From: a virus
IMG/VR virus record: IMGVR_UViG_3300001472_000091
Coordinates: 1-30,567 of that record
Length of the DNA stretch: 30,567 nt
Reading direction: 5' to 3' (one strand)
The notes under the pieces were generated by a model. The model had not been told where the DNA came from. It did no database searches and saw only the letters and a program-made list of their open reading frames with translations. A program made the position numbers and the translations under genes. Positions 5,354 through 27,650 of the stretch are shown piece after piece; position 1 is the first letter of the stretch; each line of letters starts with the position of its first letter.

Positions 5354-6157
5354 TTAAGTCGTAATTGGACGCTTATTGTATAAGTCATCATCGCTCATCG
5401 GAGCGTTTGATGGATCATCCGAATAAAATGGAATTTGAAACTTCTTACCGGTTCTCGAAGAAGTAAATAGATTCGTTGCTTGTTGGACATTTGCTCCCGC
5501 AAGAACCATATCTCGTTCATCCTCAACATGATAGTCTGTGATGGCCGATGGATCATAGTTATAATCTCTACCGCTGAAGTGATTCGCTCTTAAGTTAAAC
5601 ATAGTAAAGGTCATCCAAATCTTGAAAGATCCTTGTGGTGGTTGAGACATGATGGAGTCAGGCGATCTGTCCTTGAAGTCTGGGTCTTCAAAATTTGCAT
5701 CGTAATCTGATAGGTTCGTTGCTTTCATTTTTTGACCAAACACAATCGCATCCTGTAAATACTTCTTACCTAGCCTAATCGCATCCATCTTATCGATATC
5801 AAAAACCAAAAAGCTTAATTCTGGTCCAAAATATTCTCCGTCAACTTCCATATACTCCAAATTTAAAGAGTCTAGGTCTTGTCTTAATTCGGCCATCTTT
5901 GCTGAATTATCCCAATCTAATTTAACATCATTGATTTGACGTCTAATCTTGCGGAATGATCCTTGATTTTTATCGTCGTTTGGATCTATTACTTTCGCAG
6001 GTGGATTTTCTGCTGTAATTATCGCAACGGTTGCAGGTCCACTTTCTGATTGTAGAGTGCCTAATAATTTATCCAAGTTTTGATCTGTAGAGCCTATTTG
6101 TGCTTCGCTTAAAACCTCGTATATCATTTTTTTTAGCTTTTTAGTTGTAAGTTTCAT
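5354..6157 (-). CDS. hypothetical phage protein with LTxxxLxxxI N-terminal motif
   Basis: 267 residues, function not recognised. The N-terminus, KLTTKKLKKMIYEVLSEAQ, matches the ITKxxLxxII-type leader of the two Lys-rich genes at the left edge, again ending with a Leu-X-Glu triplet (residues 16-18). The rest is acidic, with segments such as FGPELSFLVFDIDKMDAIRLG near 108-128 that suggest an alpha/beta fold, and a Pro/Asp-rich C-terminus. The start ATG 6157 overlaps the stop of the GroES-like gene (ATGA) and has GGAGAC upstream. If the leader is a capsid-targeting sequence this would be a packaged protein; that is inference. Confidence 0.75.
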   Translation of the reverse strand: MKLTTKKLKKMIYEVLSEAQIGSTDQNLDKLLGTLQSESGPATVAIITAENPPAKVIDPNDDKNQGSFRKIRRQINDVKLDWDNSAKMAELRQDLDSLNLEYMEVDGEYFGPELSFLVFDIDKMDAIRLGKKYLQDAIVFGQKMKATNLSDYDANFEDPDFKDRSPDSIMSQPPQGSFKIWMTFTMFNLRANHFSGRDYNYDPSAITDYHVEDERDMVLAGANVQQATNLFTSSRTGKKFQIPFYSDDPSNAPMSDDDLYNKRPITT

Positions 6158-6435
6158 TCTTCTAGTCTCCCGTAGACATAATTTTCTTTAACGACGTAAA
6201 TAGTCTCAGATCCGGCTTTTATCTCCTGAACCGTAGTTCTATCTGCTATGATCGAGTCTCCGATCTTTAATGAGATGGAGCAGTCTTCAGCCATACCTAT
6301 CACCTCTCCTATAATATATGGAGACTTGGGGGGTTGGTATTCTTCAGGCATCACAAAGAGTGGTGCTTCTTTGTCTTCTTTCTTTTCGTTCAACGGTAAG
6401 ATCCATAGGTGTCGGTTGTGTGGTTCAAAATGCAT
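6154..6435 (-). CDS. GroES-like co-chaperonin-type protein
   Basis: 93 residues from ATG 6435, chosen because GGAGG lies 4 bases upstream; a longer GTG start at 6459 would read through that ribosome site. The order of features follows GroES: an N-terminal HisLeuTrpIleLeuProLeu strand, an acidic loop, a TyrIleIleGlyGluValIleGlyMet strand, LysIleGlyAspSerIleIle, and a C-terminal TyrValValLysGluAsnTyrValTyrGlyArgLeuGlu that closely resembles the GroES end. The mobile loop region is Glu/Lys/Pro rich and unlike host GroES. T4 gp31 is a precedent for a phage protein that replaces GroES to fold the capsid protein. It is the first gene after the promoter at 6501-6529. Confidence 0.7.
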   Translation of the reverse strand: MHFEPHNRHLWILPLNEKKEDKEAPLFVMPEEYQPPKSPYIIGEVIGMAEDCSISLKIGDSIIADRTTVQEIKAGSETIYVVKENYVYGRLEE

Positions 6436-6453
6436 TTTTCCTCCAAATAAAAA

Positions 6454-6519
6454 AATCACAATATGTTATATTGGGAACAAAATTAACTGTTCTTGTTTAT
6501 AATATAACATATTGTGATT
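6454..6519. repeat. perfect 19-bp inverted repeat over promoter
   Basis: Left arm AATCACAATATGTTATATT at 6454-6472, right arm AATATAACATATTGTGATT at 6501-6519, with a 28-base spacer. The arms are perfect complements and stop abruptly on both sides. The right arm covers the -10 box and part of the spacer of the promoter, while the left arm lies in the 5' leader of the GroES-like gene. The transcript should begin near 6494, so RNA would not contain the right arm. This points to a DNA operator rather than an RNA hairpin. Confidence 0.85.
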
Positions 6520-10048: not shown

Positions 10049-10999
10049 TCACTTATTTATTCTTCGAAACACCAACTGCAAGTCTGTGAAGTTGAGATGG
10101 CCGGCATCATCAACAAAGAGCATTTGTGTGAACTTTATTTTATTGAATGTTGGTTCGAAGTCATTGATTGCTTTTTTGATGATCTCTCGATTCATCGGCC
10201 TGATGTTTGGGAATTGTAATTGCATGATCGCATAGTTGTCTTTGATTAACTGCTCATCCTTTTGAATGTTCTCGTGGATCTTAAGCTTTTTTCCGACCAT
10301 CACACAGTCCTTTACAATATCTCCGACTTCATATTCGTCCTCTCTGATGAGATAGGGGAACCGCTTCGCAATAGTCTTAAGACCTGCTCCTTTGATCCCC
10401 GGTAAATTGTCCGACGAATCGCCAGCGATGGCTCGTGCTAATGCGAAGTTCTTTGGGTGAATCTTGAATTGTTCTACGACAGTTTGTTCAGTTACAATTT
10501 TTTTCTGAATTGGTCGGTAAATTTGAACATCATCTCGACATAATTGAAAAAAGTCTTTGTCACTTGATATGATTGTCTTTTTCCAACCGGCATACTTTGG
10601 ATGATTAATTACTAACGCAATAATATCATCCGCTTCCGTAAAGTCTGCAACAAGTTGGATCACAGGCATTTCATTTAGATATTCCATAAGTCTAATTTGC
10701 TGATATCCTTTATTGGCCTCTTCTTTGTCTTCAGGTATATCTATCATTCTTCGGTTGAATCTCACCGGTTTTCTTCCGCCTTTGTAGTTCTTGTTCATCG
10801 AACGTCGTCTCTGAGAGCCTTCATGGCCATCCCAGGCTATTATAACCTCATCAGCAGTAAAGTCCCTAGCTACCTTCTGAAGGCTCTTTAAGAAGCCTAT
10901 GGTGCCCCCGATGGGCATACCATTTTTGTCCAGCTGTGGGCTTATTACATAGCTACGCAAAAACATGTTCAGCGCATCGATTATTATTACATTTTTCAT
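10049..10999 (-). CDS. 5'-3' exonuclease / RNase H, FEN family
   Basis: 316 residues, the size of T4 RNase H. Such enzymes remove RNA primers and 5' flaps during lagging-strand synthesis. The acidic metal-binding residues are in place: Asp8 in ValIleIleIleAspAla, Asp57 in IleAlaTrpAspGly, GluAlaAspAsp at 122-125, SerSerAspLysAspPhe at 145-150, and GlyAspSerSerAspAsnLeuProGly at 193-201, which leads into the helix-3-turn-helix (GIKGAG) used to grip DNA. An Arg-rich arch region lies at about 64-84. The start ATG 10999 overlaps the stop of the AlaRS-like gene (ATGA) and shares its GGAGG ribosome site, so the two are on one mRNA. Confidence 0.94.
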   Translation of the reverse strand: MKNVIIIDALNMFLRSYVISPQLDKNGMPIGGTIGFLKSLQKVARDFTADEVIIAWDGHEGSQRRRSMNKNYKGGRKPVRFNRRMIDIPEDKEEANKGYQQIRLMEYLNEMPVIQLVADFTEADDIIALVINHPKYAGWKKTIISSDKDFFQLCRDDVQIYRPIQKKIVTEQTVVEQFKIHPKNFALARAIAGDSSDNLPGIKGAGLKTIAKRFPYLIREDEYEVGDIVKDCVMVGKKLKIHENIQKDEQLIKDNYAIMQLQFPNIRPMNREIIKKAINDFEPTFNKIKFTQMLFVDDAGHLNFTDLQLVFRRINK

Positions 11000-11859
11000 T
11001 TGTCCTCCAGACTTTTTATGAAATCAATATCTATTCCCATGGTGTCGAACCACCACTCGTTGGACTTGTCTTTAAACTTGGGTTTGTCCTTGTTTCTATT
11101 GTAGTTTTCTACAACCTTGTCTTGTCTCTTCTTCTCCTTAAGGTAGTGTTCATTATCCCAATCTGAACCCAATCTGTAGAGTTCCCTGAGAAGCTTGCGA
11201 AACACATAACCTTGCTCCTTGTTGCTTGGGTAATAACCAGAGTAAAGAAGCTTCTCGCATGCTTGGATTAGGATCTCTTCCCTTGTCTCTTCGTTATCTC
11301 CATTGACGAACATGTTAAGTCTTTGAAGACCAAATCCGACGTCAATGCACGTTCCAAGTGGGTTTACGATGTTTCCAATCTCGACGTCGTCCTTGAAGAA
11401 CTCTGTGCAGTAGCCACCAATTTGTCCATCGGTCCACTTGCACTCTTCATCTGGTCTGACTTCTACATCATAGTTTTCGTAAAGGCTTTTCCAATCCTCC
11501 ATCTTATCCGGATGGATGGTAACGTAATCTACTTTGATCCCTAGGGTGTCTTCGACGAACTCCATCCAAAAGTCAACTGACTGCTGAACCGTAAGAGTCC
11601 TGAAAGAGAATAACCCTATCATATCAAAATAAAGATAGTGTGTTCCATCACCTATCTCCTCAAGGTCATTGAGTCTTATGCATGACTGCACGTTTGCTAG
11701 TGTTCCCGTCTCTTCCGACTTAAACCTCTCTTTGAATTGCTGCATTCCTGCAGGGCAAAACAATGTTGTATTGTCGTAAGGCCGGACATTGTCGTCCAAT
11801 TGGAATTGAACTCCTTTGCTAGCACAAAAATTTCTATATAAATCAATTATATCTATCAT
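10996..11859 (-). CDS. stand-alone alanyl-tRNA synthetase-like catalytic domain
   Basis: 287 residues from ATG 11859 (GGAGG 8 bases upstream; the frame stays open upstream but has no better start). It follows the class II catalytic core of AlaRS in order: PheCysProAlaGlyMetGlnGlnPheLys at 34-43, SerCysIleArgLeuAsnAspLeuGlu at 59-67, PheAspMetIleGlyLeuPheSerPhe at 78-86 (family: FEMLGNFSF), GlyGlnIleGlyGlyTyrCysThrGlu at 145-153 (family: GPCGPCxE), and AspValGlyPheGlyLeuGlnArgLeu at 173-181 (family: DTGxGLERL). Substitutions are present in several of these. The editing and C-Ala domains (AlaRS is about 875 residues) are absent. It could charge tRNA weakly, or activate an amino acid for another acceptor. 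Driven by the promoter at 11879-11907. Confidence 0.8.
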   Translation of the reverse strand: MIDIIDLYRNFCASKGVQFQLDDNVRPYDNTTLFCPAGMQQFKERFKSEETGTLANVQSCIRLNDLEEIGDGTHYLYFDMIGLFSFRTLTVQQSVDFWMEFVEDTLGIKVDYVTIHPDKMEDWKSLYENYDVEVRPDEECKWTDGQIGGYCTEFFKDDVEIGNIVNPLGTCIDVGFGLQRLNMFVNGDNEETREEILIQACEKLLYSGYYPSNKEQGYVFRKLLRELYRLGSDWDNEHYLKEKKRQDKVVENYNRNKDKPKFKDKSNEWWFDTMGIDIDFIKSLEDK

Positions 11860-11878
11860 AATATGTCCTCCGTATGAT

Positions 11879-11907
11879 AATATAACATGTCTAAGGCGAC
11901 GTGTCAA
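11879..11907 (-). promoter_or_regulatory. sigma70-type phage promoter, AlaRS-like/exonuclease unit
   Basis: Minus-strand TTGACA (11907-11902), 17 bp, TATATT (11884-11879), with ACATGT next to the -10 box. It lies directly behind the UUCG terminator at 11920-11952 and about 20 bases before the AlaRS-like ATG. Confidence 0.9.
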
Positions 11908-12614: not shown

Positions 12615-13721
12615 CTAACCTTCTTCGTCCTCACCTTCAAGTCCAAAGTTCTTGCCTTCAGACTCAAATTTTCTTATGATTTCCTCATCCATGATGTCAA
12701 GCACAACAGAACGAAACTCTGGTTCTTGCAACTTGTTGATCCATTGCGACTTCTGGAATTTGAATTCCTTTCCATTCGCGTCATAAATCTTGTTCCAAGC
12801 TCCCGGCTTAAAGCGATCAGAACCTGAGACCCTTAGTGCTTCCAACCACGATTCTTCATCTTGAATTCCGACCGTATTTCCCCACAAGATCTTAAAGCCA
12901 CATGTGCGCCCCTCAGATCCGAAGCGAGACTTCTCAACCTTAACTTTTACCTCAGAGCCAATGCGAACACCGGTTCCATTAGTTACATAAGAAGCCTTCG
13001 CTTTTCGCTTTGTTAACCAAATGCGTAGCGAACAGAAATAACCGATTGCCTTACCGCCTGGAGCAATGTAGGGCGTGGTCATTGCCTCAGCAATGTTTGA
13101 AGTTATGTTGGTCTTAAGCTGATTAATCAACAACATTGTGCATTGGTGATCTGCTAACGGAATAATCAATTTAGGAAATGCTTTCGCAAAAATCCTTGGT
13201 TTCACGGCCATTGTTGACTGGGGATTAAAATCACTTTCCAACTCTTTCTCGGAAGAGGTAGCTGCGATTGAGTCCCAAATAAACAAAAATTTTGTCTCCG
13301 AATACTCCGTCATCAGGTCTTCAATTGTCTCAAGAACTTTCTCGACGGAAACTCCCTGAACATACATGAAGAGGTTTTCAATATCAACGCCAGAACTCAA
13401 TAGGAATGCCGGGTCAATAGCAGACTCCGCATCAAAGTAAATGACAAAATGGCCTTTCTTTTGTGCTTGCGCAGCAATTTGACAAGCCATGTAAGATTTG
13501 CCTGCTGATGATAAGCCGGCGATCTCAGTGGCTTTCCCAACGGGAATTCCAGCCATCTTACCTCGACAGATAATAGAGTCCAACCAGCGTGAACCAGTTG
13601 GAATCCATTCTGTGACAGCAGTAGGATTGTCTTCACTAAGGTTGTGTGCTATGTTCAGTCCAACTTTTTTATTGATGAACTTCTTCATAGAACTAATGTC
13701 AATCTTACCTGCTTTGGTCAT
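12615..13721 (-). CDS. RecA/UvsX-like recombinase
   Basis: 368 residues. It would form filaments on ssDNA and carry out strand exchange, driving repair and recombination-dependent replication. Walker A GlyLeuSerSerAlaGlyLysSer is at 69-76, a TyrPheAspAlaGluSer motif at about 94-99, Walker B PheLeuPheIleTrpAspSer at about 145-151, and a LeuIleAsnGlnLeuLys segment (L2-side Gln) near 197-202. An IleAlaProGlyGlyLysAlaIle segment near 217-224 fits the DNA-contacting region. The C-terminus is acidic (GluGlyGluAspGluGluGly), as in RecA regulators. The start ATG overlaps the stop of the preceding lipoprotein gene by one base (TAATG), which places it in the clpP-lipoprotein-lipoprotein-recA operon. 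Confidence 0.93.
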   Translation of the reverse strand: MTKAGKIDISSMKKFINKKVGLNIAHNLSEDNPTAVTEWIPTGSRWLDSIICRGKMAGIPVGKATEIAGLSSAGKSYMACQIAAQAQKKGHFVIYFDAESAIDPAFLLSSGVDIENLFMYVQGVSVEKVLETIEDLMTEYSETKFLFIWDSIAATSSEKELESDFNPQSTMAVKPRIFAKAFPKLIIPLADHQCTMLLINQLKTNITSNIAEAMTTPYIAPGGKAIGYFCSLRIWLTKRKAKASYVTNGTGVRIGSEVKVKVEKSRFGSEGRTCGFKILWGNTVGIQDEESWLEALRVSGSDRFKPGAWNKIYDANGKEFKFQKSQWINKLQEPEFRSVVLDIMDEEIIRKFESEGKNFGLEGEDEEG

Positions 13722-13915: not shown

Positions 13916-14156
13916 TTGTTACTCCTTCGTTTGTATTAGTAGTTTTGGTTGAAGTCGAAGTGACTTCTGTTTTAGGTTGCTCAAGTGTGATAGCATTAAC
14001 ATCTTTAGCAACTTCGACTGTAACGTCTGCAGTTTTTTCATTAGTTGTCTCCTTCGTTTCTATTGTAGCAACTTCGGCTGCTGTAGTTGTGGAGTCTACA
14101 TTGTTTGTGACTTCCTTCTCTCCGCAAGCAAAGAGCATTGTTAGTAGTAACATCAT
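13908..14156 (-). CDS. small lipoprotein, Thr/Val/Glu-rich
   Basis: 82 residues. MetMetLeuLeuLeuThrMetLeuPheAlaCysGlyGluLys gives an 11-residue signal core with a Leu-Phe-Ala-Cys lipobox (Cys11). The mature chain is low complexity, rich in Thr, Val, Glu and Asn, with repeated ThrGluThr/ValGluVal pieces and no predicted fold. AAAGGAGG lies just before the double ATG at 14156; the start overlaps the clpP stop by 4 bases and the stop overlaps the next lipoprotein by 8. The missing positive charge in the signal n-region is unusual, yet both tandem genes keep the Ala-Cys-Gly-(Glu/Asp)-Lys junction, which argues that lipidation is selected. Confidence 0.75.
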   Translation of the reverse strand: MMLLLTMLFACGEKEVTNNVDSTTTAAEVATIETKETTNEKTADVTVEVAKDVNAITLEQPKTEVTSTSTKTTNTNEGVTND

Positions 14157-14764
14157 GTTACCTCCTTTAGTTTTATATCTAATTTTATATTTATTTCTAA
14201 TTTTGGCATACCAACTTTGTCGGCTAATCCAAGGTCAATCGCTTCTTTAGATTCAATGAACCAGTCGGCACGACCTTTCTCGTTTAACTGTTTGTTAAAC
14301 CATTTCTCTGACTTGTTTGAGTTTGCTGATAGGATTTTGTAAATCTTCTCATTCAAACGCTTCACCTCTTCTGCACTTGCTTGAATCTCCGAGTTCTTAC
14401 CCCATGAGGCGGAACTTACATCGTGGATCATCAATGTTGCGTCTTCTGTTATGTATCGATATCCTTCGGTTCCACAAGAGAACAGAATGACTCCACAACT
14501 CATAGCCTTTCCTTCGACTATGGTTGCTACCGGTAATTCAGAGTTCTTGATGGATGCGATCATACTCATGAGAGAGTAGACTTGACCTCCATAAGAATCA
14601 ATGATTACTGGAATAACAGATTGACCCGTATTGTGTGCCGAAGCCATCTTCTCTGCGAACTCCTTCGCTGATTTTTCATCAAACTTGTTAACTCTGATGA
14701 TGACCGGGCTGCTTCTTAATTCAACAGATTTTATATTACTGTCAATATTTCTTTTCCATAACAT
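14153..14764 (-). CDS. clpP: ClpP-like serine protease (S14)
   Basis: 203 residues from ATG 14764 (AAAGGAG 5 bases upstream; the upstream extension is rejected because it runs through a terminator). The catalytic triad can be placed: Ser89 in GlyLysAlaMetSerCysGly, His114 in AlaThrLeuMetIleHisAsp, Asp167 in AlaAspTrpPheIleGluSerLysGluAla. The GlyGly turn at 59-60 (SerTyrGlyGlyGln) fits the oxyanion loop. ClpP works as a barrel with an ATPase partner; none is seen here, so it may dock on host ClpX/ClpA or process phage proteins. It heads an operon with two lipoproteins and recA. Confidence 0.9.
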   Translation of the reverse strand: MLWKRNIDSNIKSVELRSSPVIIRVNKFDEKSAKEFAEKMASAHNTGQSVIPVIIDSYGGQVYSLMSMIASIKNSELPVATIVEGKAMSCGVILFSCGTEGYRYITEDATLMIHDVSSASWGKNSEIQASAEEVKRLNEKIYKILSANSNKSEKWFNKQLNEKGRADWFIESKEAIDLGLADKVGMPKLEINIKLDIKLKEVT

Positions 14765-14780
14765 GTTGTCTCCTTTAAAT

Positions 14781-14808
14781 AAAAAAGGCACCTGTAAACC
14801 CGTGCCTT
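14781..14808 (-). terminator. rho-independent terminator before clpP
   Basis: Minus-strand AAGGCAC (14808-14802), 10-base loop, GTGCCTT (14791-14785) followed by TTTT. The T-run ends only about 17 bases before the clpP ATG, so the terminator almost touches the ribosome site of clpP. No promoter of the window's common type lies between it and clpP. Confidence 0.8.
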
Positions 14809-16244: not shown

Positions 16245-17018
16245 TCAGTCTTCACTCATGAAAGCGGCGAATGCTTTATCCACGTCTGCTCCTGTTTTCT
16301 TTTTATATTGTTGAGTCTCATTGGAAGAGGACTCTGCTGAACCGTCGGAGGACAGGTAACCATCCAGCAGAGTTTGCACTTCTTCCGGAGTCTTGACATC
16401 AAACAAGTTGTCGATATCAGGAACGGAATCCAACAATTGTTGACAGTCTGCGATGCTGTCGTCACATAAGATAGATGGACGTCGGCGGGGTTGCAAGACT
16501 GTCTTTGGAAAAGAACCAGGTGTTCCGGGAATTGAATAAGTTAACTTAATATCAGTTCCTGTTTGAGAGTCAGTGATGTCTCCGTAGTCAGGATCCAATA
16601 CATAGCCCAAAAGGGTTTCATAAGCGGTCTTACCATAAGCCCAGATTTTTACACCGTCGGCTTCGTTTCCACGAACAAGAACAGGTGAATAATATCGCTT
16701 TCGAGCGAACATTTTCTTAGCTTCGTTTTTGAGGTTCTGGTCGTCACTTTGAACGCCATCCCTCCAAAGCTTTGATGCGAAATCACAGATGGCACATTCG
16801 CCACCGTCGTTTCGCTTGTTGCAGTAAATTCCAGGGTTCTTCCCTACATTGTAGTGAAAGTGGAACTCACGGAACGGATCGCCATCCGCTGTTGGTAGAA
16901 TACGAATCATTTGGTCACCAGCACTTGGTTTCCACATTGTACTCTTGCGTCCGGAGGATTTTCCACCGTTTTTTGATTGATCGAGCTTAGCTCGCATTGC
17001 ATTTAGATCTATAGCCAT
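16245..17018 (-). CDS. gp32-like ssDNA-binding protein
   Basis: 257 residues. It should coat ssDNA at the fork and recruit recombinase and helicase. The N-terminal basic leader (about 1-27) is followed by SerThrMetTrpLysProSerAlaGlyAspGlnMetIleArgIleLeuPro, the start of the gp32 OB-fold core, and a zinc site made of His (HisPheHisTyr, 53-56) and Cys66, Cys75, Cys78. The GluAlaAspGlyValLysIleTrpAlaTyrGly segment near 119-129 also fits the family. The C-terminus ends in AlaPheMetSerGluAsp after a Ser/Gln/Lys linker, like the acidic partner-binding tail of gp32. AGGAG precedes ATG 17018. It is the only gene between the promoter at 17120-17148 and the hairpins at 16152-16217. Confidence 0.9.
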   Translation of the reverse strand: MAIDLNAMRAKLDQSKNGGKSSGRKSTMWKPSAGDQMIRILPTADGDPFREFHFHYNVGKNPGIYCNKRNDGGECAICDFASKLWRDGVQSDDQNLKNEAKKMFARKRYYSPVLVRGNEADGVKIWAYGKTAYETLLGYVLDPDYGDITDSQTGTDIKLTYSIPGTPGSFPKTVLQPRRRPSILCDDSIADCQQLLDSVPDIDNLFDVKTPEEVQTLLDGYLSSDGSAESSSNETQQYKKKTGADVDKAFAAFMSED

Positions 17019-17479: not shown

Positions 17480-17565
17480 TGGTACGCCAGGTAGGATTCG
17501 AACCTACGATGGGTGTTACCCGTCGCCTTAGAAGGGCGATACCATATCCACTAGGTGACTGACGC
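17480..17565 (-). tRNA. tRNA-Arg(UCU)
   Basis: 86 bases including an encoded CCA. Acceptor GCGTCAG pairs with CTGGCGT (two G-U pairs), D arm ACC...GGT, anticodon arm TCGCC-CTTCTAA-GGCGA giving anticodon UCU (reads AGA), T arm GTAGG-TTCGAAT-CCTAC, A73. The variable region is 15 bases with a 4-bp stem (GGGT/ACCC), a class II-like arm that is unusual for Arg. AGA codons are common in this window. Confidence 0.92.
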
Positions 17566-17570
17566 GTGCT

Positions 17571-17598
17571 AAAAAGCGGCCTTTTGGAAGGTAGCCGC
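17571..17598 (-). terminator. hairpin terminator, distal copy of tandem pair
   Basis: Minus strand GCGGC (17598-17594), 13-base loop TACCTTCCAAAAG, GCCGC (17580-17576), then TTTTT. It separates the 88-residue gene from the tRNA-Arg gene. Confidence 0.75.
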
Positions 17599-19116: not shown

Positions 19117-19926
19117 TTAAACCTCTTGAATGAAGTGAGTGTAGTGTTTGGCGTACAAATGACTTTCCTCAGATGAGCGCCAGATGGCGAATGAAGTTTC
19201 CCGGTTTCGTGCATTGTTCTCTCTAACGATTTGTTGGCATTTCGGTATGACTGTCTCATCTGCGTTTAAATCTTCTTCTTCTATATTAATATAATAACAT
19301 GTTTCAGTAATGTTGTCAAGTGAATAAAGTAACTTTTCATCTTCTGCATCAAAAGAACCAAATGATATTGTAGAGATTCTCGATATTTCTTTTTTAGAAT
19401 GAAGCCTATTAAAGTCTGCAGCCGTGTGTGAACAATACATGAGGTTTTGAAGAGTTGAATAGATAAAATAATTTACTTTTTCATAATAGTCCGTAACGGT
19501 TCCTGCACCAGCAATGCTCAATAGAGTCTTGTTGTCCAATATTAACATTTCTTCAATCATTCCTGATCGGACATATTCTTGAAGTACATTGAAATGAACC
19601 CTGTGTCTTAACTTTTCTTTCTTCGAACAGAACTCAACGTCAGGCACCAAATAACATACGGTTGTTTTAAAGCCCTTCAGTGCCTCTAGGACACGTAGTG
19701 ATGCACCAGCAACCTTACCGGACCCACAAACAAACAGGATGGCTTCATCGTGAGATTTGAGGCCTCTCTGTTTAAATCTGATTGTGGCTTCATCGTATTC
19801 TTCCACGGTACTCTTCTTTTCAATACCGTCATCTTCGTCAAGAATTATTATTTTATAATTCTTGGTATGTGGCTTGAAGAGTTTGGCTATATTTTTTCCA
19901 GCCTCTCCTAATCCTACTAAAATCAT
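19117..19926 (-). CDS. divergent tubulin/FtsZ-like protein
   Basis: 269 residues. The layout follows the tubulin superfamily GTPase: a nucleotide loop IleLeuValGlyLeuGlyGluAlaGlyLysAsnIle at 2-13 (family: VGLGQxGxN), a signature-like ValCysGlySerGlyLysValAlaGlyAlaSerLeu at 66-77 in the place of GGGTGSG, a CysTyrLeuValProAsp...GluPheCysSerLysLysGluLysLeuArg strand-loop, a LeuIleLeuAspAsnLysThrLeuLeu segment at 128-136 (family: IVIPNDxLL), and AlaAlaAspPhe at 169-172 where FtsZ has NLDFAD. The second Gly-rich loop is altered (no GTG), so GTPase activity is uncertain. A Rossmann-type dinucleotide-binding protein is the alternative. Phage tubulins such as PhuZ and TubZ move or centre DNA; a similar role here is inference. 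Confidence 0.55.
   Translation of the reverse strand: MILVGLGEAGKNIAKLFKPHTKNYKIIILDEDDGIEKKSTVEEYDEATIRFKQRGLKSHDEAILFVCGSGKVAGASLRVLEALKGFKTTVCYLVPDVEFCSKKEKLRHRVHFNVLQEYVRSGMIEEMLILDNKTLLSIAGAGTVTDYYEKVNYFIYSTLQNLMYCSHTAADFNRLHSKKEISRISTISFGSFDAEDEKLLYSLDNITETCYYINIEEEDLNADETVIPKCQQIVRENNARNRETSFAIWRSSEESHLYAKHYTHFIQEV
19291..19319 (-). promoter_or_regulatory. promoter-like element inside tubulin-like gene
   Basis: Minus-strand TTGACA (19319-19314), 17 bp, TATTAT (19296-19291) with AAACATGT beside -10, matching the family. It is inside the coding region of the tubulin-like gene, about 170 bases from its stop, and could serve the three small genes downstream. Confidence 0.7.
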
Positions 19927-20339: not shown

Positions 20340-20514
20340 TGAATACCTCAAGTTCCGTGTCCCACATTGGAACTTCTACCCCGTCACTCATAAATACCCA
20401 ATATAACCTAAATAGTTGTCCGACTTCTTCTATTTTAGTCACAATTCCAATCTCACCGTTCCTATATCCTGTTGTTTGACAATCAGAAAGGACAACCAAA
20501 TCACCAACTACCAT
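20308..20514 (-). CDS. small SH3-like protein, unknown function
   Basis: 68 residues: MetValValGlyAspLeuValValLeuSer, TyrArgAsnGlyGluIleGlyIleValThrLysIleGluGlu, PheArgLeuTyrTrpVal and a GluValProMetTrp segment that gives the clearest SH3-like pattern of the set. The start ATG 20514 overlaps the polymerase stop by 7 bases, so it is translated from the polymerase mRNA. The role is unknown. Confidence 0.7.
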   Translation of the reverse strand: MVVGDLVVLSDCQTTGYRNGEIGIVTKIEEVGQLFRLYWVFMSDGVEVPMWDTELEVFNGERGSSNYS

Positions 20515-21701
20515 GAAAACTCTTTTAGTTTCCCCAAACTCTTACCCATTGAGCAGTTAACCTTGAACTTGCCCAAGCGGGTGTTCCCAAATATTTCCTT
20601 TAATTCAGGGATGAGTCGTTTGTCGTCGGCATGAAGATCAATGATAACGCTATCGTGAACAATCGCAGTAACATGGGATCTTGTTGCCCTAAGGAAACCA
20701 GAAATTTTGATAAATCGTTCGAGTGTGTTATCAGAGGAACTTGATTGTAAAAGGTAATTGAGTGCTTTACTAGGGGTAGTTGCAATTGTTCTCCCGAATG
20801 GAGTGCTGACCATTTCACTTTCGGCGTCATAATATCTTTCCAAGAGTATTTCTCTATCGTAGTAATCTGATTCAATGGCTGTAGATTCTGGGTTGTAGAG
20901 CCAAGCGAATATTTTTGTTTTTGCTTCGTCTCGGCTAAGATCTTTTCGAAAAACGTTTTTGATGTTCCATTCATGAATATCCTCCTCTGGTTGTTCATGT
21001 TCTAACAATGCAAGCATTGTTCTAATCTCGGAAGCGTTGAAATCAAGTTCCAAGAACACATCATTGGTTGGATAGACGTGGTTTTTGAGTTCTGTCTTAA
21101 GATTTAATATTGGAAAAGAATCTTTCTTAGTTGTTAGTCGACCAGTAATTGTTCCAAACAAGTTGTAATCAATGTATGGGGTTGTTTCGCCAAATTGACT
21201 GTAAAGATGCTTTGCCTTTAAATCATCTGCAGATATACAATATAGAGCGAATGAATTAAGGTTGATTGGGTGTCGTTTCAATTCCTTTATGGCCGCTTGG
21301 GCGTTTTTTAATAAAGTGTAGTGTTCAGGTCTCTCGTAGTTATCAAAAATCCACTTGGTGATTTCATTCTTGGTGTCGAAGTAGTGAATCAAATGCTTCT
21401 GAGGTACGACATCGTAAAAGCAGACATCGTCAAGATCAATCTTCGATGTGATAAAGCTCTTGAAGTGAGACTTCATCAATTTACTAACAGAACTCCACCG
21501 TTCCCTTAAGAATTCTGGACATACAGAATCGAGTGATTTGCCCTCAACAAGCAAACTAGCGTAATCGACATCCATACCGAATAGGTGGTCTGAATATGAC
21601 CACGTTTTTGATATTCCTTCTGGAATTCTTTGCCAAATGAACTGACCGTCTAGGTAAGTTCCAGCACAATCTAATTTATTGTCTAAAAGTTGAAAAAACA
21701 T
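20508..21701 (-). CDS. family A DNA polymerase, polymerase domain only
   Basis: 397 residues, about the size of the palm/fingers/thumb part alone. Family A signatures can be read in order: PheGlyThrIleThrGlyArgLeuThrThr (family: TGRLSS) near 182-191, motif A LeuGluLeuAspPheAsnAlaSerGluIleArg near 216-226, a motif B-like ArgLysAspLeuSerArgAspGluAlaLysThrLysIlePheAlaTrpLeuTyr near 250-267, PheGlyArgThrIle near 302-306, and motif C ValHisAspSerVal near 348-352, where the usual HisAspGlu is HisAspSer. No 3'-5' exonuclease domain is present. GGAGG precedes ATG 21701. It is unusual to see this enzyme beside a T4-like replisome set, which normally has a family B polymerase. Confidence 0.85.
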   Translation of the reverse strand: MFFQLLDNKLDCAGTYLDGQFIWQRIPEGISKTWSYSDHLFGMDVDYASLLVEGKSLDSVCPEFLRERWSSVSKLMKSHFKSFITSKIDLDDVCFYDVVPQKHLIHYFDTKNEITKWIFDNYERPEHYTLLKNAQAAIKELKRHPINLNSFALYCISADDLKAKHLYSQFGETTPYIDYNLFGTITGRLTTKKDSFPILNLKTELKNHVYPTNDVFLELDFNASEIRTMLALLEHEQPEEDIHEWNIKNVFRKDLSRDEAKTKIFAWLYNPESTAIESDYYDREILLERYYDAESEMVSTPFGRTIATTPSKALNYLLQSSSSDNTLERFIKISGFLRATRSHVTAIVHDSVIIDLHADDKRLIPELKEIFGNTRLGKFKVNCSMGKSLGKLKEFSW

Positions 21702-21748: not shown

Positions 21749-21777
21749 AGAATAACATATCTCAACAGGCTTGTCAA
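21749..21777 (-). promoter_or_regulatory. sigma70-type phage promoter, polymerase unit
   Basis: Minus-strand TTGACA (21777-21772), 17 bp, TATTCT (21754-21749), with ATATGT beside the weak -10. It is the weakest -10 of the family. It starts two bases after the stop of the 383-residue gene. Confidence 0.72.
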
Positions 21778-21778
21778 G

Positions 21779-22930
21779 TTATTTGTGAAACTTTTTTTTG
21801 TAATAGGTCAGCGACCCTTCCTTGGTGTTGTACCTGTCTCTGAATTGAGATTCAATGAATTGCATTGCTTGTTCTGGTGTTATCGCAAACAATCTTATGG
21901 AGGTGTTGTGGATAGATCTCATTTCGGAATCAGAAAACGGAAAAAGTTCTTCCATATTTCTTATTTTAATATATAATAATAATAATATAATATAATCTAT
22001 ACTATTAATATTGTTTCTTTTAGATATATTAGATTTAGTTTTATTATTACATACATATACTTCCTTTAAATTCGGTCTTAGATAAACAAATGAATTGTAA
22101 GTATCAAGTAGGTATTGTGATAATAAGTCAAAGTCAAAATTGTTTGTTTTATAGTATTGCTTTTCGAATACTGAAGCAACAGTTAACAATGTATATCTTT
22201 CTCGAAACTTTGTTGTAGTTGGATGAGCTAAGTCAGACACCAGCACGCTGGGATTTTGGAGATTGACGGAAAATCCAAACTGTTTGGCCATATTCATAAA
22301 GAATGCATAGTTCGGTGAGTTTAGAATCGCACTTTCTTTATTAGCATCATTTGCGAAACCAACAGGAGCTAACTGTAAAGCTAGACCTGTGTTGAAGGCG
22401 GAGCTTTGTTTGGACTTCATGAAGCCTGAGAGAGTTATCTTTGAACCAATATCTTCAGTGAGAACATGTGCTTCGAAAAATTTCAAGAAAGTTTCGAATG
22501 AATCGATCTTCCTATCAATAGGGATCATTTTTTTCACGAGAAAATCATCCATGAATGAGGCCATGAAATCGGAATATCCTTTTATCGGGCTTTCCCAACC
22601 ACGAATAACAGTCAATTTTGATAGGTTAGGATCTTCATTGTTTATTAGACTTAGGTTTAAAGCGTTCTCATAGCGTATATACATCTCTTTGAATTGATCA
22701 CCAACAAAGTTCATGATTTGAAAGTCTTGATTGTGAAAGGTTCTTAAGAAAGACTCGTTCGCGATGACTGGATCAAGTTGCCTATTGACTCTTCCATAGA
22801 ATGACTTCTCGGCAAAATTAAAATCCACAACTTGAATCTCACTTGGGGAGAATGCATTGAGTTTGTAATTTGCTCTGTCAAAAGCTGTTTTGAGTGCTTT
22901 CGAATTATTGTTTCCTTTAAAGTTGCTCAT
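21779..22930 (-). CDS. hypothetical phage protein, 383 aa, probably virion-related
   Basis: I do not recognise this protein. It lies directly after the 1569-residue virion protein (10-base gap) and is the last gene before the polymerase promoter, so a tail or baseplate role is likely by position. The middle (about 150-250) is mixed; a hydrophobic IleAspTyrIleIleLeuLeuLeuLeuTyrIleLys segment lies near 314-325 inside a locally AT-rich region (forward 21960-22030 is almost only A and T). The C-terminus is Arg/Lys rich. No signal peptide. Confidence 0.7.
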   Translation of the reverse strand: MSNFKGNNNSKALKTAFDRANYKLNAFSPSEIQVVDFNFAEKSFYGRVNRQLDPVIANESFLRTFHNQDFQIMNFVGDQFKEMYIRYENALNLSLINNEDPNLSKLTVIRGWESPIKGYSDFMASFMDDFLVKKMIPIDRKIDSFETFLKFFEAHVLTEDIGSKITLSGFMKSKQSSAFNTGLALQLAPVGFANDANKESAILNSPNYAFFMNMAKQFGFSVNLQNPSVLVSDLAHPTTTKFRERYTLLTVASVFEKQYYKTNNFDFDLLSQYLLDTYNSFVYLRPNLKEVYVCNNKTKSNISKRNNINSIDYIILLLLYIKIRNMEELFPFSDSEMRSIHNTSIRLFAITPEQAMQFIESQFRDRYNTKEGSLTYYKKKFHK

Positions 22931-22940
22931 GATATAAGTA

Positions 22941-25900
22941 TTACGCCGTTGGATATTCTGTAGCTCTTACTTCGGAACCATCAGTATTTTTGTATACATA
23001 TTCTATCTCCCCGTTATTATAAGCGACTATCTCTAGAGGGATGTTTTTTCCACCGATATTTGTAAATGTGTTAGAACGACTTGTAACAACTCTCGTATCT
23101 CCATCTACAGCAGAACCTTGAAGGTTCGCTTGTTGATCAGTAGTTAGACTTACAACGCTGCTTGACGTAGCCGCAGCAGTTTGTGCACTTGGTGCTGGTG
23201 TAGATGTTTGTGCTTCTATTTCTTCTTGTGGAATGACCTGAACAAATGGTGCACCGCCCATAACTTCTTGTAAATCAACAATTGCTTTCTCACAGAATCT
23301 AGCATCTGCGGCGTTTTTGTTCGCGGCAGCATCGATACCAAATGTTTCAATGAGCAATTCATCACTGCTTTCCGGCACAGAATTGGACGGAGCAACAGAG
23401 TTGTTCTCTTTATCTCCAGAATAATAATGTTGAGCCTTAACGCTTGTTGTAAATGAACTAGGAGTAAGTGTTGTGGATACGCCGGTGATTGTGTGATACC
23501 CACCTATACCTAGAACGTTAGCAAGAGACCTTTTTTTCTCAAGCCCGCCGGTTCTAGGGTGTCCCAGTGCAGTCCCTCCAAAACCATATGGATTTAACCA
23601 TAGATCCATTCCCGGATAGAATAGTGTATTTCCAAACATCTCAATGGACACGCTATAAACTGAAGATAATTGTAATAAACCGTCAACACCATTGCGCATA
23701 AATCTAGCTTCGCGAACATATTGTAAATCTGTTTTTGAAAATTGAACTGTCTTTACCAGTCCCCTGTTTGATCCAATCTCAATATGAAATATCCCACTAC
23801 CAATGTCTAGTGCATAATCCCCGACTCCCTTGTGGCTTCTTGTTGATCCATTTGGGTTCAATATGATATAGTGAAAGAAGTTTTCAATCTTTGAATCACC
23901 AGCTGGGCTGCCCTCTAAAGGCAATCCCGCAGGCTGCACTGTATTTTCACCCTCAATATTTGAAGGCAACCTGTTGTCGTCAGTGTCTAAGATAGCGTTG
24001 GCTCTAGACACTCCAATTAGGCTACCGATCTTGTCTTCTTTGGTGTCTGAGTATGAAGAAAATTGTCCGGTTTGAAAAATCAATCTTTTTTCGATATCGC
24101 GATTAACACATGCCTCTAGCATCGCATTTGATACCAATGCGTTTGAAAGAGATCTGATAAAGTTCAAGATTGGAAAAGACCTTCGTGTGGATTTTTGACT
24201 TAGAACGTTGTCGACAAACCATCTAGAGAAAAATTCAACAGAAATTGGTATATGAGAGATATTAAATGAATTAGTCTGCGTTTCTTGGAATAATTGAAAT
24301 TCAAAAGATCCCAAGATAATCATCGTGTTTGCCAAACCTCTTGCCTTACCATTGTCTCTCTCTAGGTATAGAGAATCTAAGACCGTATAAAGCAAGTCTC
24401 CAAAGAAAAAATACTGAACAAGAGTGTCATTCTTGTCTGCGTCGTTAAAGTCAAACCCATTGCTGTTCTCTGGTAGTCTCGTGTTAAGTACAATACCTAA
24501 ATCTCCAGAGTTCGCATTGGCTTTGTCTTTGTCTAGTGCAACGGTGCCTAAAATATCGCACTCTCGGAAGTATCCATTGTCCAGAAACTGTCTCCGATGA
24601 TTGTCGTCTATAACACAGTTAAATATCTTATTATTTTTTTGCAACCTTTTCATGATAGAACTTAGTGATTGCTTCAACAGGACCTCTTCAATAGCAGCGA
24701 TTGTCTTTTTAGCATCAGTCAATTGATCAATGGTGCATTTTTTCGAGATAGCCAATTCATTTAGTTTCGTTTCGTTGACTAGTCTCTGATGTATCACTTC
24801 CGGCGTCGCCAAGGCATCATATCTCAGACTCTTAAGAGCAGTTTCAACATACGCTCTATATGTTAGACTAACTTCGACAGTCCCATCATTTTTAATATTA
24901 AAGCTGTGATCTATCATACATAAGTAGAATGACTTATTCATATTCTTGATTGCTGATCGGATGTTAGGTAAGTCGCTTCCAATCCCTTCGAGACTATCCG
25001 GAACATTATATCCAGTCTCCACCATAATTCTGTAAAAAGATGGGTCATACTGTCTCAAGCTGGTGACGGGTACTCCTTGTACGCGTTCATCATCGTCTGG
25101 TTCTGGTTGAACAATCAAGTCTACAAAACTAAAGGTATCTCCATTGTAAGACTTTCTCTCTCTAATGAAATCCGCGAAGCTCTGAAAAAACAAGGTCATG
25201 GTACCTTTAACATCATTTCTAGCTTCTGCTGGATTTGTTCCATTGAATTCTAAAGTGAAACTCTTAAGGCCAACACCATCTCCCTTGTCAAACTCAGCTT
25301 CCAAGAAAGATTGGACTTTTCCCTCCACTACCGTTCCACTTCTTCCTGCTTGAGGGTTTGTAAAGTTTTTACTTCTTGACAAGTCGGTATGCATCGGGAA
25401 TATAAACTCAGTTCTTTGCAACTTCCCGGCTGGATCATTTAGTACCTTATATAGTCTAAATTTTGGTACAAGTTGAGTCATAATATGAGGAGGGGCTTCA
25501 AATAGGTATTGGGATTTTTCTGAAGAAAAAATATTATTAATCAACTGCTCTTTGTTTTCTGAAGTCGCTCTCCAAAATCTACCACCGAATGGTTTTTCTG
25601 GGTTCGGCCCATCAGGATTTTCTGATGCTTGGCGATCTATTATGTGTTCCTCATAAGGTATTGCGAGCTTTGACATGTTCATCATTAAAGCGCATTGTTT
25701 GTAAAATTTTTGCCGGTCTTGGATCTGTTCATCTGTGAGCGTGGTTATGTCGGGTAAAGGTATATTGGCGAAAGCCTTTCCAATCGCATCATCAGCAGCG
25801 GCTTTGGCTGCACCAACATTGCTATCATCAAGAAAGTTCTCATCTCTACTTAATTCAAAAGAAAACCTATTCCACAACCTTAATCTTCTTTCAACATCCT

Positions 25901-27650
25901 TATCTATAGCGAAGATGGATAGTGTTTTTTTTAAAAATTCATCATCGGCTACTGTGGCTCTAAACGAGGCACCTACAGATTTACCATTCGCAAGCGCATG
26001 TATGGCATTCCCCAGGAAGTTTTGATATTTATTTAAAACCAGTCTTTCTAATCTATCTGACTGTGACCGTTCCGATGCTGCCTCATAAAGAGACTGGCCG
26101 AAACCAGCCAGCATAGCAAGGTTGAATGCGAGAAGGACACCCTTTAGGCTCACTATGAATCTTATGACCTTAGTTGCTCTCACTAATCTCTGAGTGTTTT
26201 TTCCTACCTTACCCATCTTGGTTAACTGTTTGAACGCGTTTACACTTATATTTCCCGTCTTCCACTTAGATGATCCCCCAAGTGGATATTGCTTGTTTAA
26301 GACCGTTAGCATTCTCCAAGCATTTATTTTGGTTACACCGTACTTGGTCATGATTGCGGCCGTACCTCCGACCAAAGTACTTGTGTTGATCTGCGGAAAC
26401 TCTACAGGTGTATCATCTTCCGCCTCGAACTCTTTTAAAAGTTTACCGGTCCAAAATGGCGTTTGTAAAACATCATAGTCTCCTTCGGGATCTGGATTAG
26501 AGAGTTTTATGAGCCCTGTGGCCTTGTCGATGAACTTGGACCTATTTTCTCCCAATTGTTCTCCAAATGCTGTCCAATAATCACTATCGAAAATAATTCC
26601 CCATGAGTCATAAAACTCACCACTGTAGAAGTTAAAAGGGTTTTTGGTAATATCCTTCCCCCTCAACGCTTTAGCTAAGATGTCGATCTGATCATCAGTA
26701 TAATATATCGCTGTATCTGGGTCTTGGTCTTCGGGGGGAGTTGTCTTTCCAAGTATTGTGGCCTTTGTGTTCCATTTTGTCAATTTTTTGAATGTTTCCA
26801 ATTTATCAACAGGTATGGTTGTGGCGTGAGTCACATTAACCGTTTTATATTCTTTGCTCAAATAAGCCTTATCTCCATCTATAATTATAGATAGTGGACC
26901 TTCGCCATCTCCAATTATTTCAAATAATTTGAATGCGCCCGTAACTGTAGGGAGCACCGAGACCGACGCACTAGCAACTTGTTGAATTTTATCTACTGCT
27001 GTGGTGTCCTTGGTTTCTCCTAGAAATTCAGGAGACAAACTAGTCTGCACTTGAAACCCAGTCTCTCTAGACGAGATAAGTTTATCGGATAGTTTTTCAG
27101 ACAATTTTAACTTGAAATCATCGTAGGTGTACCCTCTGTCTATGAGCGTTCCCAAGAATGTTTCTTTAAACAATTCTCCTACTGTTCCATTTTTCATAGC
27201 TTTTGTTATTGAGTCATTTATTTTGTTTTCTGCGATTTCGGTCTTGACCGGGTCGATTTTTTTTAAGATGATGTTGTTGTCGGTATCATAAGTAATGTAG
27301 TTTATCTTCTTGTCTGAGTAGACGGAGAGCAAAAGGAGTTCAAAGAATCCTCTATTGACCGGATTGTTCACATCTAACCCATCAGACAAGACCAACCAGT
27401 GGGAAACAGCATATTTGTAGTCTTCTTCATTTTCAAAATTTGGCCCAAAGATTGTGATTGCTCTGCCGGCTAAATAATCATCAATCGCCGTTTCTAGATC
27501 CGAGGTCATGTAATCGTCGATAAAAAACGGATTCAATAGCATGTTCTTTATGTCCACATTGATCAAGTTGGATGGTCCAGCAGATATTTTCTGCGGGGAA
27601 AATTTTCCCATTAAGAGTCCTTCTGTTCTCGTTCTTAGATTTGGGCTCAT
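22941..27650 (-). CDS. very large virion protein, probable baseplate/hub component
   Basis: 1569 residues. The start ATG 27650 overlaps the LysM-like gene stop (ATGA). A hydrophobic segment (LysGlyValLeuLeuAlaPheAsnLeuAlaMetLeuAlaGlyPhe) lies at about residues 500-520. The region near 1340-1410 contains IleGluMetPheGlyAsnThrLeuPheTyrProGlyMet and LeuGlyIleGlyGlyTyrHisThrIleThrGlyVal...PheThrThrSerValLysAla, typical of baseplate hub or tail-assembly beta domains as I remember them. The last 150 residues are Ala/Ser/Thr/Gln rich with a short C-terminal beta domain. The size suggests a fusion of several structural parts. The position between LysM-like and tape-measure genes supports a tail role; the exact part is unknown. 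Confidence 0.65.
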   Translation of the reverse strand: MSPNLRTRTEGLLMGKFSPQKISAGPSNLINVDIKNMLLNPFFIDDYMTSDLETAIDDYLAGRAITIFGPNFENEEDYKYAVSHWLVLSDGLDVNNPVNRGFFELLLLSVYSDKKINYITYDTDNNIILKKIDPVKTEIAENKINDSITKAMKNGTVGELFKETFLGTLIDRGYTYDDFKLKLSEKLSDKLISSRETGFQVQTSLSPEFLGETKDTTAVDKIQQVASASVSVLPTVTGAFKLFEIIGDGEGPLSIIIDGDKAYLSKEYKTVNVTHATTIPVDKLETFKKLTKWNTKATILGKTTPPEDQDPDTAIYYTDDQIDILAKALRGKDITKNPFNFYSGEFYDSWGIIFDSDYWTAFGEQLGENRSKFIDKATGLIKLSNPDPEGDYDVLQTPFWTGKLLKEFEAEDDTPVEFPQINTSTLVGGTAAIMTKYGVTKINAWRMLTVLNKQYPLGGSSKWKTGNISVNAFKQLTKMGKVGKNTQRLVRATKVIRFIVSLKGVLLAFNLAMLAGFGQSLYEAASERSQSDRLERLVLNKYQNFLGNAIHALANGKSVGASFRATVADDEFLKKTLSIFAIDKDVERRLRLWNRFSFELSRDENFLDDSNVGAAKAAADDAIGKAFANIPLPDITTLTDEQIQDRQKFYKQCALMMNMSKLAIPYEEHIIDRQASENPDGPNPEKPFGGRFWRATSENKEQLINNIFSSEKSQYLFEAPPHIMTQLVPKFRLYKVLNDPAGKLQRTEFIFPMHTDLSRSKNFTNPQAGRSGTVVEGKVQSFLEAEFDKGDGVGLKSFTLEFNGTNPAEARNDVKGTMTLFFQSFADFIRERKSYNGDTFSFVDLIVQPEPDDDERVQGVPVTSLRQYDPSFYRIMVETGYNVPDSLEGIGSDLPNIRSAIKNMNKSFYLCMIDHSFNIKNDGTVEVSLTYRAYVETALKSLRYDALATPEVIHQRLVNETKLNELAISKKCTIDQLTDAKKTIAAIEEVLLKQSLSSIMKRLQKNNKIFNCVIDDNHRRQFLDNGYFRECDILGTVALDKDKANANSGDLGIVLNTRLPENSNGFDFNDADKNDTLVQYFFFGDLLYTVLDSLYLERDNGKARGLANTMIILGSFEFQLFQETQTNSFNISHIPISVEFFSRWFVDNVLSQKSTRRSFPILNFIRSLSNALVSNAMLEACVNRDIEKRLIFQTGQFSSYSDTKEDKIGSLIGVSRANAILDTDDNRLPSNIEGENTVQPAGLPLEGSPAGDSKIENFFHYIILNPNGSTRSHKGVGDYALDIGSGIFHIEIGSNRGLVKTVQFSKTDLQYVREARFMRNGVDGLLQLSSVYSVSIEMFGNTLFYPGMDLWLNPYGFGGTALGHPRTGGLEKKRSLANVLGIGGYHTITGVSTTLTPSSFTTSVKAQHYYSGDKENNSVAPSNSVPESSDELLIETFGIDAAANKNAADARFCEKAIVDLQEVMGGAPFVQVIPQEEIEAQTSTPAPSAQTAAATSSSVVSLTTDQQANLQGSAVDGDTRVVTSRSNTFTNIGGKNIPLEIVAYNNGEIEYVYKNTDGSEVRATEYPTA

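Follow-up and report, generated by a model that had tools for sequence, protein, structure and literature searches.

We find that the virus contig record IMGVR_UViG_3300001472_000091, analyzed here in its entirety (30,567 bases; hereafter the window), encodes a protein, TUB, that is predicted to adopt the tubulin/FtsZ fold, and that its gene is a core gene of a polA–TUB–SSB–RecA replication cluster in a large uncultured phage lineage. We favor the reading, with a probability of about 0.6, that TUB is a nucleotide-binding, probably nonhydrolyzing tubulin that the phages have redeployed to scaffold or regulate their DNA replication. In the mechanism that we propose, TUB would be coexpressed with the phage polymerase and would hold a guanine nucleotide without tubulin-type hydrolysis, the T7 acid that normally comes from the neighboring subunit being missing. 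Because this acid, and presumably tubulin-type hydrolysis with it, is absent, TUB would not be expected to build GTP-driven dynamic filaments. As a scaffold or regulatory subunit, static and held by its nucleotide, it would organize the phage polymerase, the single-strand DNA-binding protein (SSB), and DNA, whether by partnering the polymerase or by forming a short or nondynamic assembly at replication sites.

TUB occupies positions 19117 to 19926 of the minus strand, from an ATG at 19926 to a stop codon at 19119 to 19117 (included), and encodes 269 residues; the plus strand across the same interval contains many stops. A sequence-only reading of the window had placed a candidate divergent phage tubulin/FtsZ-like protein at these coordinates, which proved right. 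TUB is under strong purifying selection (pN 0.08 to 0.19 and pS 0.67 to 0.74 against five relatives, with synonymous sites near saturation). Together with the relatives found in IMG/VR, these values confirm that the open reading frame (ORF) is a real gene and not a chance ORF. The single TUB sequence recovered 12 relatives (of 22 stretches), the first TUB alignment 45, and a diverse TUB alignment at least 597 of 600 candidate stretches. Alignment A2 was built without L001 to L003, which are identical to the window protein, and without L036, which has a stop within the given frame; alignment A3 consists of 32 chosen TUB sequences. For conservation analyses, 151 sequences were gathered and partial ones dropped, and the resulting 146 unique sequences were reduced to 74 representatives at 70%. 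The family spans 266 to 299 residues by ORF calls, with a median pairwise identity of 39% among the 74 representatives. ORF lengths were counted from the first possible start codon, so true intergenic gaps may slightly exceed those given below. Contigs carrying the family reach 184 kb.

Cultured phages gave no match to the family when 50,697 phage records were queried with the window protein, L223, and L324. A pattern search of the genomes of 84,980 prokaryote species gave 153 matches, of which none was a relative. When the TUB profile was run against 60 sampled bacterial genomes, 11 weak matches, to FtsZ or otherwise, in 10 genomes were returned, 9 of which were confined to the first 42 profile positions, the site of the GxGxxG motif. 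Conversely, Escherichia coli FtsZ and phiKZ PhuZ, used as queries against viral contigs, recovered no relatives. One family contig, IMGVR_UViG_2684622992_000003 (L321), has an identifier from a different series than the metagenome contigs; we presume that it may be an isolate or single-cell genome, and it might reveal the host.

The AlphaFold2 model of the window protein, computed from a 42-sequence alignment, has a pLDDT of 89.5 and a pTM of 0.88. It consists of an alternating strand/helix nucleotide domain, a 21-residue core helix H7 (residues 147 to 167), and a second, C-terminal domain. Foldseek searches of the PDB with this model returned FtsZ 7ojb as the best match (E 7.5e-13, TM 0.65), and all 50 of the matches listed were FtsZ or TubZ. 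In VIA, the top match was CetZ 3zid (Z 23.4, rmsd 2.8, 248 residues aligned, 13% identity), accompanied by TubZ 4ei7 (Z 22.5, rmsd 3.0, 266 of 269 residues aligned), TubZ 2xka (Z 22.5), and FtsZ 2r6r (Z 21.5, rmsd 3.3, 260 aligned). A replicate model of L223, which is 30% identical to the window protein, reached a pLDDT of 91.4 and a pTM of 0.90 and matched TubZ in the Foldseek search of the PDB (E 4.2e-12), and CetZ (Z 24.8, rmsd 2.9, 259 aligned, 18% identity) and TubZ (Z 23.8) in VIA. Both models were produced by the same method, and their input alignments have seven rows in common. By entry title, all 50 of the matches listed for each model, in the Foldseek search of the PDB and likewise in VIA, were FtsZ, TubZ, CetZ, tubulin, or tubulin-containing assemblies. 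Across both models, 248 to 282 residues aligned with members of the tubulin superfamily at Z scores of 19.8 to 24.8 among the matches listed; the absence of a family, such as PhuZ, from the VIA results is not counted as evidence. BFVD gave eight matches to the window model at E ≤ 0.001, which include unnamed proteins as well as phage proteins annotated as FtsZ, as PhuZ, or as a cell division protein.

The models thus support a full tubulin/FtsZ fold for TUB, with nucleotide domain, H7, and C-terminal domain. The proposal of a divergent phage tubulin is borne out by the fold in both models and by their Foldseek and VIA matches, including the FtsZ and TubZ hits that the sequence-only reading had named as a check. 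Neither model shows the outcome that this reading had named as refuting, a Rossmann fold lacking the core helix; H7 and the second domain are present in both. A plain Rossmann enzyme, the candidate raised by weak TrkA_N, saccharopine dehydrogenase, and DEAD matches, is ruled out unless both models are wrong. That the tubulin assignment is wrong and TUB a Rossmann-type protein, as these and other weak Rossmann matches would have it, is extremely improbable given two high-confidence models in which both domains are tubulin-like, with best Z scores of 23.4 and 24.8 and only the tubulin superfamily among the matches listed. The models also depart from canonical tubulins in places. In the window protein the last strand (residues 256 to 263) is followed by six residues, without a C-terminal helix, and in the L223 model the strand at 265 to 272 is the last element, with no helix beyond it and only a tail of low confidence at its end. 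The stretch equivalent to T3 and H3 of FtsZ appears shortened, judged from an alignment gap and the lack of a long helix before residue 61.

The homology of TUB to tubulins rests on its predicted structure, sequence alone being insufficient. Scans of family members against Pfam, NCBIfam, and PHROGs gave weak matches, none convincing and most of them to nontubulin families. The best Pfam matches were DEAD (E 0.00021) and TrkA_N (E 0.0011), and another Pfam scan gave GARS_N at E 0.0087 versus Tubulin at E 0.052; NCBIfam gave Trm5b at E 9.6e-4 versus ftsZ at E 0.033, and the best PHROGs match had an E of 0.003. The Pfam Tubulin family was matched by 1 of 13 members in one scan (best E 0.22) and by 2 of 32 in another (best E 0.052). 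None of 10 family records contained a protein that matched the Pfam Tubulin model PF00091 at E ≤ 1, let alone above its gathering cutoff, compared with 13 of 14 controls. The diverse TUB profile, run against PDB sequences up to E 10, yielded eight matches, six of them to FtsZ (four) or tubulins (two) and the others to a carotenoid oxygenase and to a saccharopine dehydrogenase. The best had an E of 0.31, and profile positions 130 to 169 fell on FtsZ residues 157 to 196, placing the strand, T6, and H7 in register.

Profile–profile comparisons with hhalign gave a score of 33.0 for TUB against ten PhuZ proteins, above 100 column shuffles (mean 14.3, maximum 19.8) and the reversed alignment (18.5). 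Against 31 FtsZ proteins the score was 19.9, which is not significant (100 shuffles, mean 15.0, maximum 22.8; reversed alignment, 13.1). With a shallower TUB alignment, the FtsZ score was 22.9 (40 shuffles, maximum 21.4) and the PhuZ score 28.6, above all shuffles. The confident part of the TUB–PhuZ alignment covers only 31 to 32 N-terminal columns, and a generic GxGxxG motif could yield such a score. A sequence-only proof of homology to FtsZ was not reached, since the score of 19.9 lies within the shuffle range. This distance from FtsZ, and the fact that the gene is locked to polA–SSB–RecA, also speak against the idea that TUB, as a capping mimic bound to host FtsZ, blocks host cell division. 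A nonhydrolyzing subunit could poison a filament, and several phage proteins, among them P1 Icd, lambda Kil, and Rac KilR, are known FtsZ inhibitors, but we regard this role as very unlikely.

To read the nucleotide pocket, motif positions in TUB were mapped through the alignment and secondary structure, not through three-dimensional coordinates. The T1 loop, GLGEAGKN (residues 5 to 12; 19891 to 19914, minus strand), keeps the GxGxxG glycines in 96 to 100% of the 74 representatives (G5 100%, G7 100%, G10 96%); at N12, which corresponds to the second Asn position of T1, only 50% have Asn. In the T6 segment, DN (residues 131 and 132; 19531 to 19536, minus strand), N132 is present in 99%, and at the start of H7, YYEKVN (residues 147 to 152; 19471 to 19488, minus strand), N152 is conserved in 99% and Y147 in 93%. 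In tubulin and FtsZ, the Asn in T6 and the Asn or Asp at the H7 start contact guanine. A family signature, RSG (residues 120 to 122; 19561 to 19569, minus strand), lies at the end of the helix spanning residues 102 to 121 and is conserved in 99 to 100% of representatives, and R183 in 97%.

The phosphate and catalytic parts of the pocket have drifted. At the position of the T4 phosphate loop, GSGKVAGAS (residues 68 to 76; 19699 to 19725, minus strand), the GGGTGTG or GGGTGSG signature of active tubulin/FtsZ GTPases is lost; G68 is kept in 93% of representatives, G70 in 80%, and G74 in 70%, with no GTG. At the position of the T7 loop, AADFNRLH (residues 169 to 176; 19399 to 19422, minus strand), no acid is conserved in the family: the mapped positions are acidic in at most 59% (position 169, Glu and Asp together), D171 is Asp in 12%, and the nearest better acidic column is position 180, at 71%. 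The same procedure, applied to controls, recovered GGGTGTG, N207, D209, and D212 in 31 of 31 FtsZ proteins and the T7 Asp pair in 10 of 10 PhuZ proteins. From the kept T1, T6, and H7 residues and the lost T4 signature and T7 acids, we infer that TUB probably binds a guanine nucleotide and probably does not hydrolyze it in the manner of tubulins. The landmarks from which a tubulin had originally been proposed are all present (GLGEAGKN, GSGKVAGAS, LILDNKTLL at residues 128 to 136, and AADF at 169 to 172), and they fare unevenly in the family: the T1 glycines and N132 within LILDNKTLL are conserved and the T4-like loop partly so, but AADF was a lucky landmark that the family does not conserve. 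The remark that the signature loop lacks GTG extends to a T4 loop that is degenerate across all 74 representatives, and with this loop and nonconserved T7 acids an intact GTP-splitting pocket is not supported.

The near-invariance of the guanine-side Asn, set against the drift of the phosphate and catalytic parts, would also suit a monomeric sensor of a guanine nucleotide (GTP, dGTP, or ppGpp) that tunes the phage polymerase or the nucleotide supply, as would the ribonucleotide reductase and ThyX genes that the window carries in its replication cluster. However, base recognition leaves the conserved RSG and R183 unexplained and the ligand is putative, and we hold such a sensor to be quite unlikely.

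As a further alternative, TUB could form functional cytomotive filaments of the PhuZ or TubZ kind, which would position or segregate phage DNA with unusual catalytic residues. The fold is shared, TubZ is among the best structural matches of both models, the BFVD matches include PhuZ and a phage protein named FtsZ, and TUB is linked to replication genes. The catalytic T7 aspartate works across the subunit interface (PMC3678025), and the T7-dead PhuZ mutant D190A still forms stable GTP-dependent filaments (PMC4244570); the loss of T7 in TUB is thus compatible with filaments, albeit static ones. Against it, the 74 representatives lack both a conserved T7 acid and the T4 signature, whereas 10 of 10 PhuZ proteins keep both T7 acids, and no C-terminal helix follows the last TUB strand. 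In addition, a repeat scan found no iteron-like array, and no neighboring protein scanned with Pfam matched TubR. We therefore judge a dynamic filament to be rather unlikely. If TUB does polymerize, its filaments would form without T7 chemistry.

By the motif tests, TUB is not classed with the FtsZ, TubZ, or PhuZ families; its modeled fold makes it a branch of its own, and a degenerate one, within the tubulin superfamily. In PMC3678025 and PMC7824862, the phage tubulins described are PhuZ of jumbo phages and TubZ of c-st. PhuZ (the phiKZ gp39 family of nucleus-forming jumbo phages) shares with TUB a phage-encoded tubulin fold and the T1 glycines, and it is the higher-scoring profile partner (33.0 versus 19.9 for FtsZ). 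All 10 PhuZ proteins keep both T7 Asp residues and, within the G[AG][ST]G core of their T4 loop, G106 and G109, and PhuZ has a C-terminal helix H11 (PMC3678025); TUB lacks these features and the tail. TUB, and not PhuZ, is 266 to 299 residues long and located in a polA–SSB–RecA cluster. TubZ, found on Bacillus plasmids and in phage c-st, is among the best structural matches (4ei7 and 2xka), but the matched chains are about 400 residues long, compared with 269 in TUB. TubZ works with TubR and tubC; near the TUB gene, the repeat scan showed only promoter-like and short repeats, with no iteron-like array, and no Pfam match to TubR was found among the neighboring proteins. The archaeal CetZ, the top VIA match of both models, is a cellular protein with the tubulin signature. 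FtsZ gives the best Foldseek rows for the window model and the T6/H7 register in the PDB profile search, but all 31 FtsZ proteins have GGGTGTG, N207, D209, and D212, and TUB has neither these nor the C-terminal tail. In BFVD, the first-ranked match, at E 2.6e-11 and with a TM of 0.73 over the query, is A0A6J5RW92, an uncultured Caudovirales phage protein named FtsZ cell division GTPase, which has 452 residues and is 12% identical to TUB. A literature search that covered neither preprints nor most subscription papers returned jumbo-phage PhuZ and related work and nothing recognizable as the TUB family. The family would thus add another, widespread kind of phage tubulin, a replication-tied core gene that is apparently catalytically retired.

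Ahead of TUB lies polA (20508 to 21701, minus strand), which encodes a short, 397-residue family A DNA polymerase that is coinherited with TUB; the polymerase had been noted correctly in the sequence-only reading. Between the two genes are three small, overlapping SH3-like ORFs (20514 to 20308, 20351 to 20121, and 20134 to 19928, minus strand), which were recognized by sequence only in the subclade of the window. In Pfam, the first weakly matches a RecD-like helicase SH3 domain (E 0.001, under the cutoff), the second matches NifZ at E 0.056, and the third matches nothing. The next conserved gene downstream of TUB encodes a gp32-like SSB (16245 to 17018, minus strand), and the same module contains a RecA/UvsX-like recombinase (12615 to 13721, minus strand). 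A DnaB-type helicase, together with the ribonucleotide reductase and ThyX, is also encoded in the window cluster.

This arrangement recurs across the family. In the first 47 loci the order is polA (with up to three SH3-like ORFs), TUB, usually g88, SSB, and RecA, as far as the contigs extend. With polA as bait, TUB was present in 75 of 79 loci (from the best 80 of 98), and in the four loci without it (L192, L205, L212, and L244) the contig ends inside polA or less than 300 bases past it; polA is an independent bait, but the contigs are only partly independent, many of them having already been found through TUB. In 79 further loci (from the best 80 of at least 597), TUB was present in all 79, and polA lay upstream in 63 of the 64 with more than 1,300 bases there. 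The one exception, L290, has less than 2 kb of DNA upstream and resembles L288 and L289, in which 2,475 bases separate polA and TUB. Among the 63 pairs, polA and TUB overlap in 25, are at most 24 bases apart in 32 (overlaps included), are about 300 bases apart in 23, and are 0.8 to 2.5 kb apart in 8. The TUB–SSB distance is 17 to 765 bases, with a median of 86 (116 loci). Distance correlations in 68 complete sets, uncorrected for shared ancestry, were 0.86 for TUB–polA, 0.84 for TUB–SSB, 0.78 for TUB–RecA, and 0.77 for polA–RecA. This gene neighborhood is evidence of coinheritance of TUB and polA, not of interaction.

A promoter-like TTGACA-17-TATTCT sequence with a TG lies ahead of the polA–SH3–TUB series (21749 to 21777, minus strand), and similar sites precede polA by at most 200 bases in 27 of 34 loci, a raw count without a chance control; L176, one of these loci, is identical to the window. 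In all, the window contains eight TTGACA-(16–18)-TATxxT sites on the minus strand (first bases 21777, 19319, 18159, 18006, 17148, 11907, 10042, and 6529). All eight are in the coding orientation, with no such site on the opposite strand, and seven have TGTTAT before the end. One lies within the TUB gene, over the codons for LDNITETCYY.

In 96 aligned sequences, which exclude shorter ORFs and include one sister protein, the short PolA is 390 to 444 residues long. The motif A Asp, the motif B Lys and Tyr, and the motif C Asp are present in all 96, and the motif C His in 95; by column counts, 49 carry His-Asp-Ser in motif C and 22 carry His-Asp-Glu. In six family contigs of 102 to 184 kb, which may be incomplete, the short PolA was the only PF00476 match, and neither a T4-type sliding clamp (PF02916) nor a family B polymerase was found, T4 serving as positive control. 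The earlier suggestion of a T4-like replication context therefore applies loosely, to the gp32-like SSB, the RecA-type recombinase, and the DnaB-type helicase, and not to the clamp or the polymerase.

The nearest polymerase blocks are those of Flavobacterium phage immuto, Microcystis phage Mel-JY01, and an uncultured 484-kb phage, which share the replication order; a search with positive controls found no TUB in these three records. Phage immuto has both a full-length PolA (a 778-aa frame) and a short PolA. Used as bait in IMG/VR, the immuto short PolA picked 312 loci; none of the best 80 contained TUB, and 64 of these 80 have at least 900 bases downstream. In these loci (L346 to L425), a small protein directly follows the short PolA in 73 of 80, and the other seven end within 202 bases of polA. 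This protein, first seen at L174:1346-1801, has 151 residues in immuto, carries the motif HRKKESNTLYTIN, and has only a weak PHROG match (E 0.0075). It was found in none of 167 TUB-type loci scanned (L001 to L045, L171 to L172, and L214 to L333). The slot after the polymerase thus holds either of two proteins that look unrelated, as would suit an accessory role linked to the polymerase, and a different small protein in the slot of the sister lineage is what would be expected of a swapped accessory factor. A more specific version of the reading that we favor, in which TUB gave up its GTPase to become a fixed subunit of the phage replisome and the partner of a minimal (∼400-aa) family A polymerase in a clamp or accessory role, is one that we put forward tentatively, as possible but doubtful. 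If TUB binds the polymerase, it would be, to our knowledge, the first tubulin fold in a replisome.

Several other features of the window were recorded. Two proteins on the far side of polA, of 1,569 residues (22941 to 27650, minus strand) and 383 residues (21779 to 22930, minus strand), have no match in the 50,697 phage records, and their relatives adjoin polA in most family loci. A ClpP-type protease (14153 to 14791, minus strand; PF00574, E 1.3e-27) is encoded in the replication module and was recognized in some relatives only. A 303-residue protein (10996 to 11907, minus strand) matches class II alanyl-tRNA synthetase (PF01411, E 7.8e-21), its residues 26 to 144 falling on positions 8 to 134 of 552, and is far shorter than the model. 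A 101-residue protein (6154 to 6459, minus strand) matches GroES (Cpn10) weakly (E 0.026, below the cutoff). Finally, a tRNA-Arg (tct) gene (17480 to 17565, minus strand) has two direct repeats of 35 bases next to it, at 17571 and 17631.
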